DNA of 64,000 nucleotides, taken from positions 49,571 through 113,570 of the forward strand of contig JANJUF010000090.1 of NCBI GenBank assembly GCA_024710705.1, in the 5' to 3' direction. A program made the position numbers and the translations under genes. Shown here piece after piece: positions 52,460-59,819 of the stretch. Below the pieces are notes generated by a model that was given only the letters and a program-made list of their open reading frames with translations, did not search any database and was not told the origin of the DNA. Positions within the stretch are counted from its first letter, which is position 1. Each line of letters opens with the position of its first letter. Source of the stretch: Gemmatimonadaceae bacterium. GTDB lineage: Bacteria > Gemmatimonadota > Gemmatimonadetes > Gemmatimonadales > Gemmatimonadaceae.

Positions 52460-52823
52460 TGGTCTCAACAACTGGAGAGGTACAACGCCTCACCGGTGCG
52501 GGATGCAACCCGGGTCTTGGCACCCAGTTAAGGGTTTTTGGGGCAGTCGGTAAAGCTAGTCCAGCGAGGTATTTGGGTCAACTGGTGGGACTTGAGACGG
52601 AAGACGGAAGATGTAAGAACCGATTCGGGATCAAGTCGCAGTCTTCCTTCGTGTCGCTTCTCGCTCACGCGTCGGCCTTTCGTCGAGCCCAGTGGGTGGC
52701 TTCAGCGCGCAGAATGGCCGCCTGCGGGGGCCAAGCGGAAGACGGGCGAGCGGAAACCGTATGGCTCACACCTAAGTTATTATATCTCTTGCTTTTCTAT
52801 CATAAGCGGCTTATCTTCTTTCC
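52460..52823. other. Divergent intergenic region between rplM and the AbiEii locus
   Basis: No gene is supported in these 364 bases. It should hold the rplM promoter on the minus strand; I find no convincing site beyond a weak TTGCAT-N17-TTGTAC. It also contains a GACGGAAGACGGAAG repeat at 52595-52609. The last ~70 bases turn AT-rich and contain the promoter of the first small gene. Confidence 0.6.
52789..52817 (+). promoter_or_regulatory. Promoter/operator of small gene A
   Basis: TTGCTT (52789-52794), 17-base spacer, TATCTT (52812-52817), 6 bases to ATG 52824. The spacer holds TATCATAAGCG (52798-52808), and a perfect palindrome ATAAGC-G-GCTTAT (52802-52814) runs into the -10. The same 11-mer is in the same spacer position upstream of gene B. 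Autoregulation is likely but inferred. Confidence 0.7.
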
Positions 52824-53087
52824 ATGACCTCTGTCCGGAAGTATCTCGCCGAAATCGGTGCGCGTGGTGGTCGGAAGAGCCGGCGCGCGCTCACGCCCTC
52901 GGCTGCCCGTTCGATGGTGCGCATTCGAGAGGCGCGGAAGGCGTTCAAGCGCTACCGTACCCGCTGCTTCTGGTGGGCAGACCCCTCGCTTCGAATCGGC
53001 GCCGACGACGTGGCGTGGGTTGCGGAGCAGCTCATGAAGCATGGCGATCGCGAGGCCTTTCAACTCGGGGCGAAGCTATGCCCGTAA
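52824..53087 (+). CDS. Small basic protein A, putative partner/antitoxin of the AbiEii-like protein
   Basis: 87 residues. The N-terminus is basic and helical (EIGARGGRKSRRALTP), followed by ARSMVRIREARKAFKRY, a distinctive RCFWW, and an acidic helical end DDVAWVAEQLMKHGDREA. I do not recognise a named family. It overlaps the nucleotidyltransferase gene by 10 bases, and a paralogue about three-quarters identical follows that gene. Position suggests the antitoxin half of a two-gene module; there is no direct evidence for that function. Confidence 0.75.
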   Translation: MTSVRKYLAEIGARGGRKSRRALTPSAARSMVRIREARKAFKRYRTRCFWWADPSLRIGADDVAWVAEQLMKHGDREAFQLGAKLCP

Positions 53088-53884
53088 CTCCCTTCCAACT
53101 CGGCGTACTCGCGACGCTCGGGAGCCGCTCGGATCGGTACCTCGCCGGCGGTGCCGCCTTGCATCATGCCCCCGACTCGCTCCGGTTCAGCGACGACCTC
53201 GACTTCTTCCATGACGCCGAGGCGCGGGTGGCGGCCGCATTCGCGGCCGATCGGCAATTGCTCGACCGCGCCGGCTACGAGGTCGAACTCGCCTTCAGCC
53301 AGCCTGGCTTCATTCGCGCACTGGTGAGCCGGGGGGGCGAGGCGACGCGCGTTGACTGGTCGCACGACACCGCGTGGCGATTTTTCCCACTGCACCTCGC
53401 GAGCGGTGGTGGCTGGATGCTGCATCCGGTGGACTTGGCAATCAACAAGGTGCTGGCGCTTGCCGGCCGCAACGAGCCGCGCGACGTGCTCGACCTCCTG
53501 TGGTGCGACGAGCACGTGCTGAAGGCGGAGGCCTTGATGTGGGCCGCGCCGGGAAAGGATCCGGGCCTCTCGCCTCTGAGCCTCGTTGAACTCTTGTCGC
53601 GCCGCGGACGACTCGACGCCGCAGATCTCGCGCGACTCTCGCTCCGCGAAGCGCCGCCGACGCCGGCAGCAGTCCGAGAGACGTGGCACACACTGCTTGA
53701 ACGTGCCACGAATTTCGCGCGCACGCGCCCCGCGGGAGAGGTCGGCGTTCTCTATTTGGATTCGCACGGCGCCGCACGCGTGCCGACTGAAGAGCGAACG
53801 TTGACGGAGCAGGACTTGCGCATCCATCGGGGCGCGCCGGGGGGCGTTGTGCCCCGCATATCAGACGCCGCGCTCGGCGACTAG
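53078..53884 (+). CDS. AbiEii/AbiGii-type nucleotidyltransferase
   Basis: 268 residues from ATG 53078; the track frame starts far upstream at 52538. Nucleotidyltransferase signature: YLAGGAALHH (GG at 24-25) then RFSDDLDFFHD (D40, D42). The family's second motif is NKVLALAGRNEPRDVLDLLWCDE. Characterised AbiEii toxins transfer nucleotides to tRNA acceptor ends; they pair with AbiEi, whereas here the partner is the small RCFWW protein. The C-terminus (VGVLYLDSHGAARVPT) looks like a short extra domain. Confidence 0.85.
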   Translation: MPVTPFQLGVLATLGSRSDRYLAGGAALHHAPDSLRFSDDLDFFHDAEARVAAAFAADRQLLDRAGYEVELAFSQPGFIRALVSRGGEATRVDWSHDTAWRFFPLHLASGGGWMLHPVDLAINKVLALAGRNEPRDVLDLLWCDEHVLKAEALMWAAPGKDPGLSPLSLVELLSRRGRLDAADLARLSLREAPPTPAAVRETWHTLLERATNFARTRPAGEVGVLYLDSHGAARVPTEERTLTEQDLRIHRGAPGGVVPRISDAALGD

Positions 53885-53921
53885 AGCGCGGTCTGCGACC
53901 GCTCTCAACTGCTTATCCCCG

Positions 53922-53950
53922 TTGCATTTATATCATAAGCGTGGTATGGT
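53922..53950 (+). promoter_or_regulatory. Promoter/operator of small gene B
   Basis: TTGCAT (53922-53927), 17-base spacer, TATGGT (53945-53950), 7 bases to ATG 53958. The spacer carries TATCATAAGCG (53931-53941) in the same register as the gene A promoter. A further GCTTAT at 53911-53916 can pair with ATAAGC at 53935-53940. Confidence 0.7.
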
Positions 53951-53957
53951 ATTGTCG

Positions 53958-54248
53958 ATGCGCTCCGCTCGTCGATTCTTCGCTGAAATTGGGTCGCGCG
54001 GAGGCCGCAAAAGCCGCCGCGTCCTGACGCCTGCGGATGCCCGCTCCATGGTGCGTGTGCGCGAGGCGCGCAAGGCATTTAGGCGCTATCACGCGCGCTG
54101 CTTCTGGTGGACGAATCCCGAATTTCGAATCGGCGCCGAGGATGTGGCTTGGGTCGCGGAGCAACTCATGATTCACGGCGATCGAGAAGCCAACACGCTC
54201 GGGGCGAAGCTCCTCCCCCGCAAGCGCGAAACTTCACTCGACGACTAG
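53958..54248 (+). CDS. Small basic protein B, paralogue of protein A
   Basis: 96 residues from ATG 53958. This start aligns residue for residue with protein A (MRSARRFFAEIGSRGG against MTSVRKYLAEIGARGG) and fits the promoter; the track start at 53847 and the ATG at 53946 do not. 63 of 84 aligned residues match A by hand. It adds a short tail (RKRETSLDD) and has no toxin gene of its own behind it. After it, about 200 bases to 54447 hold nothing recognisable. Confidence 0.75.
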   Translation: MRSARRFFAEIGSRGGRKSRRVLTPADARSMVRVREARKAFRRYHARCFWWTNPEFRIGAEDVAWVAEQLMIHGDREANTLGAKLLPRKRETSLDD

Positions 54249-54447
54249 CGACCCGCTCGGCCTCATCATCGCGCCACGACCCGCGCCGGTCTCGTGCTGC
54301 TGCTGCGCTCTCCGTTGCCGAGCTGTCCGAACTTTCCGTAGCCCCAGCATTCCGCTCTGAAATCGAGTCGTATCGCGCACGTAGTACGGTGACCTGCATG
54401 AACGGAGCGGTAGCGTCCAGACGGCGCGCCCAAGTCCGGTGACTCCC

Positions 54448-55251
54448 TCAGGGCTCGCGACGGGTCCAGATGAAGACGGCGGCGCAGGCGTCCCCTATGG
54501 CTTCGGCCGGGAGCGCGGACGATCCGCGGTAGACCTCGACGGCCTCGACGTCGTCATCGCGAAGATTCGGCGGCGTTGCTGTCCGGAGGCCATCGAGGAA
54601 CCACGCGACGGAATTCATTGTCCTCTGTGTGGAGGTGAGCGTCGGCATCCCGTCGCTGTCGGTTCCGGTCGAGATATCAACGCCGACTCCCACGCAGCGC
54701 GGCACGTTGAGACCGACCACATTGCCGAACACATCAGTGACAATGCGAATGCCGGGCACCATGGCCATTGCGGCGCGCACGCTGCCGAGTCGTTCAATGT
54801 CGTCGCGCGTGAACGTGCGCCCCTTGCCCTCGGCGCGCCGCCGGTAGAAGTCGTCGAGCGATGCCGGGGCGCCCGGGGGCATATACGGACGCCGCGCCTC
54901 GGCCACCACCGCGTCCAGGAGTTGCGCGAGCGGGCTGAGTTCGATGCGGAACTGGCGATGGACCCCACCTTGGAGATTGATCTCGGATTGCAGTGCGCCG
55001 TAGCCGATGCGGCGCACGACGAGCGTCGCGGGTCCGGCGGCGACGCGAAGCGAGAAGAAGCCCTGGCCATCCGTGCGGGTCGTGAGGCCGTCGGGCTGCA
55101 GCAGCACGGCGGCGTCCGAAATCGGCAGGCCGAGCGTGTCGACGACGGTGCCGGCGATCCAGAGCGAGTCCGTGCTCGCCTGCGCGCGCGATGCCGACGG
55201 CAGGGCGACGACGAGTGGCAAGGTCGCGATGAGGAGCTGTCGCACCGTCAT
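54448..55251 (-). CDS. Secreted carboxypeptidase-regulatory-like protein with TonB-plug-like C-terminus
   Basis: 267 residues from ATG 55251, coupled to the upstream gene (ATGA). Signal peptide MTVRQLLIATLPLVVALPSASRAQA. Residues about 30-110 form a CarboxypepD_reg-type beta domain (IAGTVVDTLGLPISDAAVLLQ, TRTDGQGFFSLRV). The rest, including FTRDDIERLGSVRAAMAMVPGI and VEAVEVYRGSSALPAE, resembles the plug of TonB-dependent receptors, but there is no barrel. It is either a stand-alone periplasmic domain or a truncated receptor. Confidence 0.8.
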   Translation of the reverse strand: MTVRQLLIATLPLVVALPSASRAQASTDSLWIAGTVVDTLGLPISDAAVLLQPDGLTTRTDGQGFFSLRVAAGPATLVVRRIGYGALQSEINLQGGVHRQFRIELSPLAQLLDAVVAEARRPYMPPGAPASLDDFYRRRAEGKGRTFTRDDIERLGSVRAAMAMVPGIRIVTDVFGNVVGLNVPRCVGVGVDISTGTDSDGMPTLTSTQRTMNSVAWFLDGLRTATPPNLRDDDVEAVEVYRGSSALPAEAIGDACAAVFIWTRREP

Positions 55252-56693
55252 CGCTCCGGGCAAATGGATGGCGGGTCCTCGGGACGGCAGGGCACGAGCC
55301 GCACCTCGCGCTCGGTGACGCCGCCACGCGCCGCCAGCGACGTCACCGACTGTCGAAAGCCCCGCGCCAGCACCGTGAGAGTGATGCGCACGGAGGCGTT
55401 GAGATCGCACAGCGCCACGTGGCCAATCTCGTCCGAACTCGCGCGCACAGCACCAGATCGCAGGAACGTGGGGAGCGTGCGCCCCCTCCAGGTGGCCAGG
55501 GCGGCGGCTGAGGGCACGCCGACATCGAGCGTGCCGTCGAGTACGCGGACCACCAATGCCGCGCGCGTGTCGGCGCCCGCCGAGTGGGGACACAACTGTG
55601 CGTACGCGGCCGCGCCGGAGGGCACGGCCACGTCCACGTGGATGGTGCTGTCCGCCGGGAGGTACAGCGTGCGTCGACCGTCCACGCCGAACAACCGCAG
55701 GCGCTCGTGGTCGACGCGCAAGGTGACGTCGCCGGCCGGCACGCGGTCGAGCGCGAAGCGACCCGCCGAATCGCTACGCACGGCGCGGCCCGTGCCGAGG
55801 GCGGTGACGCGCGCGCCTGAGAGGCCGCCGCTCGGGTGCGATGCGTCGCGCACGCGTCCTTCGATGCGGCCGATCGCCTTCGGCAGCCCTGACGGCACCG
55901 CCTTCAAGTCGCTGATGCTCGCGCCCTCGATGCGAATGCCATCCAGGTGCTCCTCGCGTTCCGTCGTCTGCGCCGTGCGCCGTTCGCGCAGCCCGAGGCG
56001 GGGCGTGCGAACTTCCCAGGTCGTGATGCCACGAATGCCGTTCTCCCACGCGCCGAACGACAGCGAGCCACCCGCCTGAGCCGGTGCGAGCGACGCATCG
56101 AGGTTCACGTAGGTGAACTCGACCCGCAGCAGATGGCTCGTTTCGCGATCCAACCAGAAGATGCCGGCGATGTCGACCTGCTCGCGCGTCGGGAGCGGAG
56201 CGAAGTGCAGGCCAAGGGCCTCGGGAGCGCGCGGGTCGGCCACCAAGCGGAAGCAATGGTCGCGCGCGAACGCGTCAGAAAGGAGCGTGCCGGCGTCCGG
56301 GGCGAAGAGCAGGTCGGGACCATCCATCGCCAAGAGGTACCCGTCGCGCGACAGCACGTCTGGCGGAAGGGTTTGGAAGAGCTCGGCGGTCCGCGCCACG
56401 ATGGTGTCATCGGTGGCCATCACAATGCGACCGAACGCGTCGAGTTCGCGCACACGCCGCAACGCCTGGATCGTAGGCGGGCTCATTGCCGCTGCCCGGC
56501 GGGCATCGCCGAGAGCCTCGCGGGCGGCGGCCCACACGGTGCCGATTGTGCCAGCATCCGCGTCCCGCGCGCAGGCCGTGGCGCCGGTGATACGGATGGC
56601 CTCTAGCCGTCTGCCGGTCTGTTGGGCCTGCAGAGATTCCTGCAGGACGGGCAGTAGGAGGGCTAGCGCAGCGAAACGACTCGCGCGGAACAT
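55248..56693 (-). CDS. Secreted protein with carboxypeptidase-regulatory-like domain, unknown function
   Basis: 481 residues from ATG 56693 (MFRASRFAALALLLPVLQESLQAQQ, a signal peptide); the track start is 39 bases upstream. The N-terminal half has no named fold but includes an outer-membrane-protein-like stretch (VDIAGIFWLDRETSHLLRVEFTYVN). The middle carries a regulatory-like beta domain (IGRIEGRVRDASHPSGGLSGARV, DSAGRFALDRVPAGDVTLRV). It precedes the plug-like gene, with which it is translationally coupled. No catalytic motif seen. Confidence 0.78.
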   Translation of the reverse strand: MFRASRFAALALLLPVLQESLQAQQTGRRLEAIRITGATACARDADAGTIGTVWAAAREALGDARRAAAMSPPTIQALRRVRELDAFGRIVMATDDTIVARTAELFQTLPPDVLSRDGYLLAMDGPDLLFAPDAGTLLSDAFARDHCFRLVADPRAPEALGLHFAPLPTREQVDIAGIFWLDRETSHLLRVEFTYVNLDASLAPAQAGGSLSFGAWENGIRGITTWEVRTPRLGLRERRTAQTTEREEHLDGIRIEGASISDLKAVPSGLPKAIGRIEGRVRDASHPSGGLSGARVTALGTGRAVRSDSAGRFALDRVPAGDVTLRVDHERLRLFGVDGRRTLYLPADSTIHVDVAVPSGAAAYAQLCPHSAGADTRAALVVRVLDGTLDVGVPSAAALATWRGRTLPTFLRSGAVRASSDEIGHVALCDLNASVRITLTVLARGFRQSVTSLAARGGVTEREVRLVPCRPEDPPSICPER

Positions 56694-57108
56694 TTGCCTA
56701 AGACCCCATTGGCAGCGATGTCGGCAGAGCAAACCTTCGGTCGGGCGGAGATTGCGCTGTACACACTTCTTGCCCGTCTCGCGGCGAGAGCGGCCGCTCG
56801 GGGTCGGTACAACCCGCTAGAGGCGAGCATGCGGATAGTGACCTCGGTGCCATCTGCGATTCGCTCCATGGCAGAGCATACGGCGAGCTATGCACAAATA
56901 CACTGACCTTTAGTGGCGCATTGTAGTTATCTTTCTTTTACTGGCTTTGGAAGTGCACTGGCTGCCTCGCCAAGCTTCTCTCAGTCAAGAGCAGGCCGGG
57001 AACCTCGCGGAGTCGAGTCCGCGCGACGGTCGCCGGAGACTTCGCCAGCCGGGTATCCTGATACGGATCGCCGAGCGTGCGCCGGTGCCAACCACAGTCG
57101 GGCGTCTC
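56694..57108. other. Non-coding stretch between the secreted-protein genes and the IS remnant
   Basis: No ORF here has coding character; the + strand 56694-56906 frame is short and lacks family features. The first part should hold the promoter of the minus-strand secreted genes. The part from 56940 to 57108 continues the transposase strand but no longer encodes transposase-like sequence, so it marks the point where the IS is cut off. Confidence 0.5.
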
Positions 57109-57523
57109 AGCGCGCGAAACGGGCGCCCGTCGGCAAAGCGATCGTGGACGAAGTCCATGCTCCAGCGTGGCTTCAGCCCCGTCGGCACAAGATGCGGGAT
57201 CCGCACCACCGCAACCCGCTTGCGGCCCTTCCGGCGCTTCAGCAGCAGGCGACCGTCGCGACACATCCGGGCGATGCGCTTCGGATTCACTCAGAACCCC
57301 AGGCGGCGCATCTTGTTCGTGAGGCGCGGCACGCCCCACGGCCGCTTCTTCGCGGCCCACGTCGTCAGCGCGAGCCGCAACGCCGGGTCGTCGACGCGCA
57401 GGTGCCGATACCGGACCGCCGCGCGGTGGATGCCCAGGAACCGGCAGGCCCGGCGCTCACTGACCTCGCCGGTGGTCCGCACGCGGGCCACGACCGTCCG
57501 TCGCTGCTCGGTCGTCACCACGT
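57109..57523 (-). pseudogene. IS3-family transposase OrfB, interrupted and truncated
   Basis: The frame runs VVTTEQRRTVVARVRTTGEVSERRACRFLGIHRAAVRYR and KKRPWGVPRLTNKMRRLGF, then a TGA (57293-57291), then continues in the same frame as VNPKRIARMCRDGRLLLKRRKGRKR and RWSMDFVHDRFADGRPFRAL. The TGA stands where intact relatives have a coding residue. Only the first catalytic aspartate region (MDFVHD) is left; the remaining DDE residues are absent. Confidence 0.8.
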
Positions 57524-57781
57524 TTTTCCCACCACGTCCTTCAGCACCTGCAGATTCAGCGCCTGGTCGGCGACCACGCGCTTGATCTGGCGGTTCTCCT
57601 CCTCGAGTTGCCGGAGCCGCTTGGCGTCGCTGACCTGCAGGCCGCCGAACTTCTTCCGCCACCGATAGAAGGTTTCCTTGGAGAGCCCCAACCGCCGACA
57701 GAGCTCGGTGACCGGCGTCCCGGCCTCGGCCTCCTGGAACAGGCCGATGATCTGCTCGTCCATCCACTTCGACTTTCGCAT
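57515..57781 (-). CDS. IS3-family transposase OrfA
   Basis: 88 residues from ATG 57781 (MRKSKWMDEQIIGLFQEAEAG); the track start adds 14 residues. Helix-turn-helix: GTPVTELCRRLGLSKETFYRWRKKFGG, then a leucine-zipper-like coiled coil RLRQLEEENRQIKRVVADQALNLQVLKDVV. The end GGGAAAAACGTGGTGA overlaps orfB and contains an A-run suited to the -1 frameshift used by this family. Confidence 0.85.
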   Translation of the reverse strand: MRKSKWMDEQIIGLFQEAEAGTPVTELCRRLGLSKETFYRWRKKFGGLQVSDAKRLRQLEEENRQIKRVVADQALNLQVLKDVVGKTW

Positions 57782-57983
57782 CCAGTCCTCCCGCGGCTGG
57801 CGCCGCACTGTGAAGACTGTCAACTAAAGACCGGACTCATTGGCGGGGGGAATCCCGGATGCATTGTCATCCTCATTTGCAGGTTTGTGGGATGACGTCT
57901 AGGTCACTTGGCTCTCTGATACTGTCCTGTCAGGAGCCTGAACGCGTCTGGTCGCTCTCGCTACCAAGCGCAGGCAGCCCGCG

Positions 57984-58079
57984 GCCGAGGACGTGACCTG
58001 GGTCGCAGAGCAGCTCAAGCTGCATGGCGATGATGCAGCGCACGGACTCGCGGAGAAGCTCCCGCGAGCCTCGATCTAG
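57984..58079 (+). pseudogene. C-terminal remnant of the small-protein A/B family
   Basis: The frame ending TAG at 58077-58079 reads AEDVTWVAEQLKLHGDDAAHGLAEKLPR. It aligns with AEDVAWVAEQLMIHGDREANTLGAKLLPRK of protein B. Upstream of 57984 in this frame there is no similarity to the family's N-terminal half and no promoter element. It is a third, broken copy about 3.8 kb from gene B, beyond the IS remnant. Confidence 0.75.
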
Positions 58080-58089
58080 CTCGCGGGGT

Positions 58090-58590
58090 TCACTCAAGCT
58101 CAACCAGCGTCGTCCCCTTCTCCACCGGCTTCCCCACCGCGGCGTGAATCGCCTTCACCACACCCGCCGCCGGCGCCCGAAGCTCGTTCTCCATCTTCAT
58201 CGCCTCCATCACCACCACCGGCTGCCCGGCGGCGACCGGATCGCCCACGCTCACGTGCACGCGTACGATGAGCCCAGGCATTGGCGCGACAACCGGCGCC
58301 GGTCCCGACGCAGCGGCCGCCGCGACGCCCAGATCCCGAATGGCGCGCGCACGCTCATCCAGCGCCTCGGCCTCAAAGCGCCAGCCATCAATCCAGAGCA
58401 CATAGCGCCCCTTCGGCCCCTCGCGGCGCAGCACCACGCGGTGCTGCACCCCGCCAATCGTCACCAGCCGTACCGGCGACCCCTCAAGCTCGGCCACCGA
58501 CGCCGACTGCGTAGCCCCCGCGAGCGTCGCCTGATGCCCCTCGAGATCCACCTCATGCCGCTCGCCGGCAATCTCCACGATGTACTTCAC
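58090..58590 (-). CDS. Biotin carboxyl carrier protein of an acyl-CoA carboxylase
   Basis: 166 residues from GTG 58590 (VKYIVEIAGERHEVDLEG), coupled to the methyltransferase stop (GTGA). The C-terminal biotinyl domain contains the EAMKMEN biotinylation site; the N-terminal part resembles the BT linker seen in propionyl/acetyl-CoA carboxylase alpha chains. Here it is separate from biotin carboxylase. Works with the accC and carboxyltransferase genes just upstream. Confidence 0.92.
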   Translation of the reverse strand: MKYIVEIAGERHEVDLEGHQATLAGATQSASVAELEGSPVRLVTIGGVQHRVVLRREGPKGRYVLWIDGWRFEAEALDERARAIRDLGVAAAAASGPAPVVAPMPGLIVRVHVSVGDPVAAGQPVVVMEAMKMENELRAPAAGVVKAIHAAVGKPVEKGTTLVELE

Positions 58591-59819
58591 GCGTTCTCCG
58601 GTCGCAGTTCGCACAGTGTTTCCACGTGCGCCGTCTGCGGGAACATGTCGTAGCAGGTGAGCTCGTGCACACGCCAGCCCGGTAGCCGCCCGACATCGCG
58701 CGCGACGGTGGCGGGGTCGCAACTCACATAGAGCACGGCCTTTGGACGCGGGCTCGAGCGGGCGATGGTCTTCATCACGCGCTCGTCCACGCCGGCGCGT
58801 GGTGGGTTGAGGATTACGACGTCAGCCGGCAGGAGAGAGGCGATTGCATCCTCGACACGCGCGGCGATGGCGCGATTCCCTGCGGGCAGCCGCGCTGCGG
58901 CGAAGGCCGTGGCCTCCTCGTCGGCTTCAACGGCAACGACCTGCACGCCGCGCTCAGCAAGCGCCACGGCCGTATCCCCCGCCCCACTGTAGGCATCCAC
59001 GACGCGTGCCGGCCCGTGCGCCATCACGCGCGCGACGAGCGCCTCGTGCAGCAGACCAGCAACCTCAGGATTCACCTGCGCAAAGCTCGCACCCGGCTCG
59101 CCTGCCGGACGGCGATCCGCCACCATGCGTCGGCGCTTGCCCTCACCCTGCCACCAGATGGCAGCGAGCCCAGGGGCGGCATCGAGAAACGCCGAGAGAT
59201 CGTTCCAGTCCGCGCCGCCCTCGAGCGTGAAGTGCGCGCGTCCGCCAATGATGCGCACCGTTCCGCGGAGCCGCGCCTCGTCGGGGAGATGCGCAGCCGC
59301 GGCGAGAATCTCGCGCCAGGCGCCGAGCACCTCAGGCGCGGTGATCAAGCAATCGTGCAAATCGAACACAGCCTCAGGATCGTCAAAGGCACGGAGCCCA
59401 GCGTACACGGAGCCGTCGTCGCGGCGACGAATGGCGAGCGTGAGCGAGCGCCTATAGCGCCACCCTTCCCCTGCCACCATCGAAGGCAACGCCACCTCAC
59501 GCTTGGCGATGCGCTTGAACGCATCACGCACCATCGTGCGCTTCGACTCGCGTTGCGCGGCGAGATCCACGTGCTGCCATTGGCATCCACCGCAGCGATC
59601 AGGCGCGGCATAGTGCGGGCAGGGTGCCTCAACGCGCGCCGGGCCGGCGATCTCGATCCGCTCAAGGCGACCACGCCCGACACGCCCAGCCACCGACACA
59701 TCCACCACCACGCGATCACCCGGCGCGGTGCGCGGCGTGAACACCACGAGCCCCTCGTGGCGCGCCACACCGTCTCCGCCCGCAGCGAGGGACGCGATAT
59801 CAATCGTGGCGGTACTCAC
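58587..59819 (-). CDS. rlmD: 23S rRNA (uracil-5-)-methyltransferase, RumA/RlmD type
   Basis: 410 residues from GTG 59819, overlapping the accC stop (GTGA). N-terminal TRAM domain (IASLAAGGDGVARHEGLVVFTP). Four-cysteine Fe-S site: CPHYAAPDRCGGC plus a cysteine in LHDCLI. SAM fold DAYSGAGDTAVALAERGVQVVAVEAD; catalytic loop VSCDPATVARD. It could methylate rRNA or tRNA uridine; the exact target cannot be told from sequence. It sits oddly between two carboxylase subunits. Confidence 0.88.
   Translation of the reverse strand: MSTATIDIASLAAGGDGVARHEGLVVFTPRTAPGDRVVVDVSVAGRVGRGRLERIEIAGPARVEAPCPHYAAPDRCGGCQWQHVDLAAQRESKRTMVRDAFKRIAKREVALPSMVAGEGWRYRRSLTLAIRRRDDGSVYAGLRAFDDPEAVFDLHDCLITAPEVLGAWREILAAAAHLPDEARLRGTVRIIGGRAHFTLEGGADWNDLSAFLDAAPGLAAIWWQGEGKRRRMVADRRPAGEPGASFAQVNPEVAGLLHEALVARVMAHGPARVVDAYSGAGDTAVALAERGVQVVAVEADEEATAFAAARLPAGNRAIAARVEDAIASLLPADVVILNPPRAGVDERVMKTIARSSPRPKAVLYVSCDPATVARDVGRLPGWRVHELTCYDMFPQTAHVETLCELRPENA

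Follow-up and report, generated by a model that had tools for sequence, protein, structure and literature searches.

An 87-residue helical protein with a dedicated palindromic promoter element as the probable antitoxin of an AbiEii-type nucleotidyltransferase in Gemmatimonadota

What does an 87-residue protein of no known family do directly in front of an AbiEii-type nucleotidyltransferase gene, and why does a second copy of it stand behind? The question arises in a 64,000-nucleotide stretch (the window) of a Gemmatimonadaceae draft genome of 3.0 Mb in 137 contigs. A sequence-only reading had proposed a toxin-antitoxin or defence module whose small proteins bind a shared promoter element. Our answer, which we consider quite probable, is that the small protein, A, and the nucleotidyltransferase, NTase, form a two-gene toxin-antitoxin module in which A is an autorepressing antitoxin of an undescribed family.

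The gene pair and its distribution

Gene A (52824-53087, forward strand) and the NTase gene (53078-53884, forward strand; 268 residues) overlap by 10 nt at 53078-53087, and these coordinates confirm the overlap that had been read by eye. The NTase scores 29.1 bits against Pfam AbiEii (PF08843, DUF1814; cut-off 22.5, E = 1.2e-6), which substantiates its earlier assignment, and its catalytic residues, as read from the alignment, are all intact: the GG of motif I, S-x-DLD and K124. Its structural model is weak (pLDDT 65, below 50 in the motif I region), and we therefore use the top fold match alone, the Helicobacter pylori nucleotidyltransferase 4ok0 (probability 0.97, E = 5e-3). Together, the family match, the intact residues and the fold make the NTase a probable toxin.

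Protein A has no family match in Pfam, NCBIfam, PADLOC or PHROG. Its AF2 model is all-helical (pLDDT 84), with residues from about 31 onward mostly near or above 90 and residues 1-30 lower; the N-domain that we propose as the DNA binder is the least certain part of the model (block means of 57-78 over residues 1-30). A fold search of the PDB gave no match (best E = 3.6), and combined sequence and fold searches of PDB chains returned nothing at E <= 0.001, with MenA1 (8AN5) absent among the hits. The earlier statement that A differs from the winged-helix AbiEi partner agrees with the helical model and the lack of family matches. Its name for the family, RCFWW proteins, suits A and B, the only two proteins with that motif, and fails for most relatives, which carry CFWS.

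Of 395 Gemmatimonadota genomes, 56 contain gene A and 50 the NTase, largely the same ones. In 42 loci the NTase lies directly 3' of A with an overlap of exactly 10 nt, the opposite of A-family genes occurring mostly without AbiEii neighbours, which the sequence-only reading had named as evidence against itself. Translational coupling across this fixed junction is probable. Profile searches found A in 9 of 199 Acidobacteriota and 9 of 193 Myxococcota genomes, with an NTase behind A in most, and a scan of genome contigs added records of the pair whose titles name Proteobacteria, Bacteroidota, Acidobacteriota (Thermoanaerobaculia) and Myxococcota. The pair and its 10-nt overlap are found again in Acidobacteriota and Myxococcota as well as Gemmatimonadota, and also in Proteobacteria and Bacteroidota; these last two phyla are represented by one metagenome-bin record each, and their taxonomy is consequently only as reliable as the bin. 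Homologues with named records are mostly from Gemmatimonadota. Among the module's neighbours in related genomes, 7 of 74 proteins are asparagine synthases, which suggests that part of the family has inherited the module at a common site.

Within the source genome, the module sits in an insertion of about 5.5 kb (52600-58090) that also holds B, two CarboxypepD_reg proteins, a transposase and a third, remnant A-family C-terminus. The remnant (VTWVAEQLKLHGDDAAHGLAEKLPRASI, ending in a stop codon; 57984-58079, forward strand) adjoins the IS3-type transposase at the insertion's right end. In eight congeners, the biotin-lipoyl gene that here occupies 58093-58722 adjoins rplM, and the segment from about 52.6 to 58.1 kb is therefore extra in this genome. 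A was found in none of 13 congeners searched. From its patchy spread, its absence from congeners and its position inside an insertion, we infer that the module moves horizontally. Two traits of type II-like toxin-antitoxin systems are thus present: an antitoxin gene that comes first and overlaps the toxin gene, and a patchy, horizontally moving distribution.

Beside the insertion, on the reverse strand, the leader of rplM (L13)-rpsI (52480-52560) contains about 36 nt, GCCRAGACCCGGGTTGCATYCCGCACCGGTGAGGCG, that are nearly invariant in 12 congeners while their flanks vary. This block has no match in Rfam and is a candidate ribosomal-protein leader.

A palindromic element over the -10 box

The promoter of the A-NTase operon can be read directly on the forward strand, with a -35 box TTGCTT (52789-52794) placed 17 nt ahead of a -10 box TATCTT (52812-52817). 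The promoter of B (53922-53950, forward strand) has the same architecture, with TTGCAT as its -35 box and TATGGT (53945-53950) as its -10 box, so that the two read TTGCTT-N17-TATCTT and TTGCAT-N17-TATGGT. Both spacers carry the 11-mer TATCATAAGCG in identical register (exact at 52798-52808 and 53931-53941), as had been noticed; 0.11 copies per window are expected in shuffled sequence at up to one mismatch, and none of 100 shuffles gave two. The perfect palindrome reported across the -10 box of A is there as well, in the 13 nt ATAAGC-G-GCTTAT, and it extends further than had been seen. The 11-mer makes up the left portion of a conserved 19-bp palindrome with the family consensus AWCRTAAGCNGCTTAYGWT, represented at this locus by the putative operator ATCATAAGCGGCTTATCTT (52799-52817, forward strand), whose right arm is the -10 box and which ends 6 nt ahead of the start codon of A. 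Allowing up to three mismatches, this is the sole copy in its genome. The promoter of B keeps the left half, ATCATAAGCG (53932-53941); its right half is degenerate, with four mismatches.

The element is tightly linked to A-type genes. The exact consensus occurs 26 times in the 395 genomes of the phylum, and 26 of 26 sites lie 4-7 nt 5' of an A-type start codon; no exact site lies elsewhere in these genomes, and the reversed pattern, searched as a control in the same set, gave zero sites. Conversely, in the same genomes a site precedes every one of the 51 genes with a strong A N-domain, 49 with at most four mismatches and two (L085 and L093) with the central base deleted; the N-domains of these two deviate. 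Shuffled 60-nt upstream sequences reach four or fewer mismatches in about 0.1% of cases. That the small proteins go together with a shared DNA element, as proposed from the two promoters of the window, thus extends across the phylum. We also considered the palindrome as a target of insertion and rejected this idea, because no site lacks an A-type gene in the 395 genomes.

Across 53 unique promoters, the distance from the end of the palindrome to the start codon is 4-7 nt, with a mode of 6 nt. The -10 box forms the final six bases of the palindrome, and 17 nt further 5' lies a -35 box of the TTG type, conserved as T/T/G/(A or C) at the same spacing in these homologous promoters; otherwise the upstream sequences of A-type genes have little in common. 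If transcription starts about 7 nt past the -10 box, the mRNA begins at the ATG; the geometry suggests that the A-NTase mRNA is probably leaderless.

Domain exchanges and the second copy, B

Natural domain swaps divide the family into three classes. Most loci belong to class I, in which the N-domain (residues about 1-45) and the C-part (residues about 46-87) occur together with the operator and an AbiEii-type NTase. Class II loci retain the same N-domain and operator and differ from the A locus in both the C-terminal tail and the NTase family. Their neighbours are DUF6036 proteins by Pfam at L094 and L095 (8e-10 and 4e-6), and at L096 by sequence likeness to these two; the neighbour at L086 matches DUF6036 just below the cut-off (1.5e-4), and the one at L087 is NTase-like by inspection only. 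These five loci are probably further toxin-antitoxin modules. Class III comprises three acidobacterial loci (L144-L146) that have the C-part with an AbiEii-type NTase behind it and lack both the N-domain and the operator. At L144 and L145 the NTase overlaps by the same junction as in class I, and motif I of these two enzymes is degraded, so that toxicity may have gone before the N-domain.

Judging by this gene content, operator binding most likely falls to the N-domain, and contact with the NTase to the C-part. A broader reading, which we find plausible and hold tentatively, is that the N-domain is a new operator-binding module of about 45 residues which, with its 19-bp palindromic -10 operator and joined to different tails, controls several NTase toxins via leaderless mRNAs in at least five phyla.

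Gene B (53958-54248, forward strand) encodes a 96-residue paralogue of A without an NTase of its own, and has a C-terminal extension in place of the overlap with an NTase start. A likeness of 63 in 84 aligned residues had been counted; our recount gives 65 of 87 identical residues. A and B are sisters (tree support 100/98), and their divergence (dS about 1.5, dN/dS about 0.11) implies that both have been kept by selection since an old duplication. An NTase remnant 3' of B was sought and not found. Orphan A genes with an operator also occur at L047, L048 and L148, and B is therefore not unique. We view it as a diverged orphan copy under purifying selection, with a half-operator promoter and a putative antitoxin role. 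It may take part in regulating the A-NTase operon or serve as a buffer against the toxin, and the anti-addiction role suggested for it from the sequence alone may also apply.

Toxin logic, alternatives and known systems

If the NTase is toxic, an active enzyme should not stand without its antitoxin. In 43 loci a full A precedes an NTase that retains every catalytic residue tested, and in six an NTase with a change in motif I or DxD; in about ten further loci A is intact while the NTase is broken or missing; these altered, broken and missing enzymes indicate that the module often decays. Leaving contig ends aside, a whole NTase that lacks A occurs only at L156. There, GG has become GA in motif I and the first Asp of DxD has become Tyr, and the last residues of A can still be read ahead of the gene. 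We thus found no counter-example of an active NTase without antitoxin, among very few cases overall and with L156 as the one clear case. In AbiEii, alanine mutation of motif I or DxD abolished toxicity (PMC3985639). The NTase also keeps a serine two residues ahead of DxD (S38), at the place of T39, the phosphoacceptor of MenT1 (PMC11375011); by this analogy, an antitoxin-induced auto-phosphorylation of the NTase is possible.

Three other explanations have to be weighed against these observations. The pair may be a non-toxic, self-regulated enzyme that modifies tRNA or a metabolite, together with its own repressor. The module does look vertically inherited in genus g70, where many members have it, and likewise beside the asparagine synthases, and it has no enrichment for defence genes or plasmids. 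We nevertheless judge this explanation unlikely, as the spread is patchy, the copy studied here lies in an insertion, the NTase is often decayed while A is kept, and the AbiEii and MenT relatives are toxins (PMC3985639, PMC10435456). A use in phage defence by abortive infection would not conflict with a toxin-antitoxin mechanism; it concerns what the module is for. AbiE NTases can confer phage resistance (PMC3985639), and yet no defence genes recur as neighbours of the module beyond generic kinase hits, and A was not found in collections of plasmids, phages and viral contigs. A defence role is consequently unlikely, and of the original proposal of a toxin-antitoxin or defence module, it is the two-gene toxin-antitoxin part that stands.

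The palindrome itself could be the site of an unrelated host regulator, or merely a strong promoter shape, with A acting purely at the protein level. The right arm is indeed the -10 box, and MenA1, a small antitoxin of a toxin of the same fold, lacks a DNA-binding domain (PMC10435456). The right arm is also less conserved than the left, and the constraint of the -10 box explains part of what conservation it has. However, three right-arm positions outside the box are conserved too, in 51, 39 and 45 of the 53 promoters, and at L036 the palindrome persists with two mismatches at -69, despite a leader and a Shine-Dalgarno sequence, so that a -10 box alone does not account for it. An unrelated regulator would further have to account for the lack of sites elsewhere in the 395 genomes and for their absence where the N-domain is missing (L144-L146). 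We consider this explanation improbable, and we retain the reading of A as an autorepressing antitoxin.

Compared with known systems, the module resembles AbiE (AbiEi/AbiEii, a type IV toxin-antitoxin system) in its NTase with GG and DxD motifs and in its bicistronic order, with the antitoxin gene first behind promoter inverted repeats. The partner, however, is an 87-residue predicted helical protein instead of the winged-helix AbiEi; one 19-bp palindrome covers the -10 box, whereas AbiE has two repeats, spaced apart and up to 23 bp long; and the start codon lies about 6 nt past the -10 box, whereas the AbiE transcript starts 26 bp upstream of the ATG (PMC3985639). As AbiEi is absent, the module does not count as AbiE strictly speaking. 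MenA1-MenT1 of Mycobacterium tuberculosis likewise places a small helical antitoxin ahead of its DUF1814 NTase, which shares the conserved Ser/Thr two residues before DxD. MenA1 has 68 residues, in contrast to A, and neither profile nor fold searches of the PDB detected homology between the two; the module is thus not MenAT1, and MenA1 serves as a precedent for a small unrelated partner of this NTase fold (PMC10435456, PMC11375011). A divergent AbiEii gene at L160 (2005-3023) is also overlapped by a small gene, whose product is unrelated to A and has a weak likeness to DUF6922 (E = 0.0032, below the Pfam cut-off). We set this locus aside as a different pairing, without A. In Panacea systems, one antitoxin domain, PanA, is similarly paired with several toxins (PMC8832971, PMC10440598); there, the shared domain itself can neutralise, whereas here the shared domain tracks the operator, with a tail that varies according to the enzyme. 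Neither nucleotidyltransferases nor AbiEii are mentioned in the NetFlax paper, and no description of the pairing of A with an AbiEii-type NTase was found in the open-licence literature. Since unrelated small partners of the NTase fold are already known (MenA1 and the DUF6922-like gene ahead of L160), it is the antitoxin family and its operator that are new, and the kind of system is known.

The proposed mechanism combines these elements. When free, the NTase would most likely modify tRNA ends and stop growth, as its family suggests. On the evidence of the domain swaps, the basic N-terminal 45 or so residues of A would bind the palindrome over the -10 box and silence the operon, and the C-terminal 40 or so would bind and restrain the NTase, while the fixed overlap would couple toxin synthesis to antitoxin. 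A drop in the level of A would then remove repression and neutralisation together.

Toxins of the AbiEii/MenT nucleotidyltransferase type are widespread, and their antitoxins are varied and known only in part; the A family would add to these an antitoxin without a database entry. The natural swaps suggest that one half of an 87-residue protein binds DNA and the other contacts the toxin, and the operator provides a precise DNA element. With these, many small genes now listed as hypothetical in Gemmatimonadota, Acidobacteriota and Myxococcota can be annotated.
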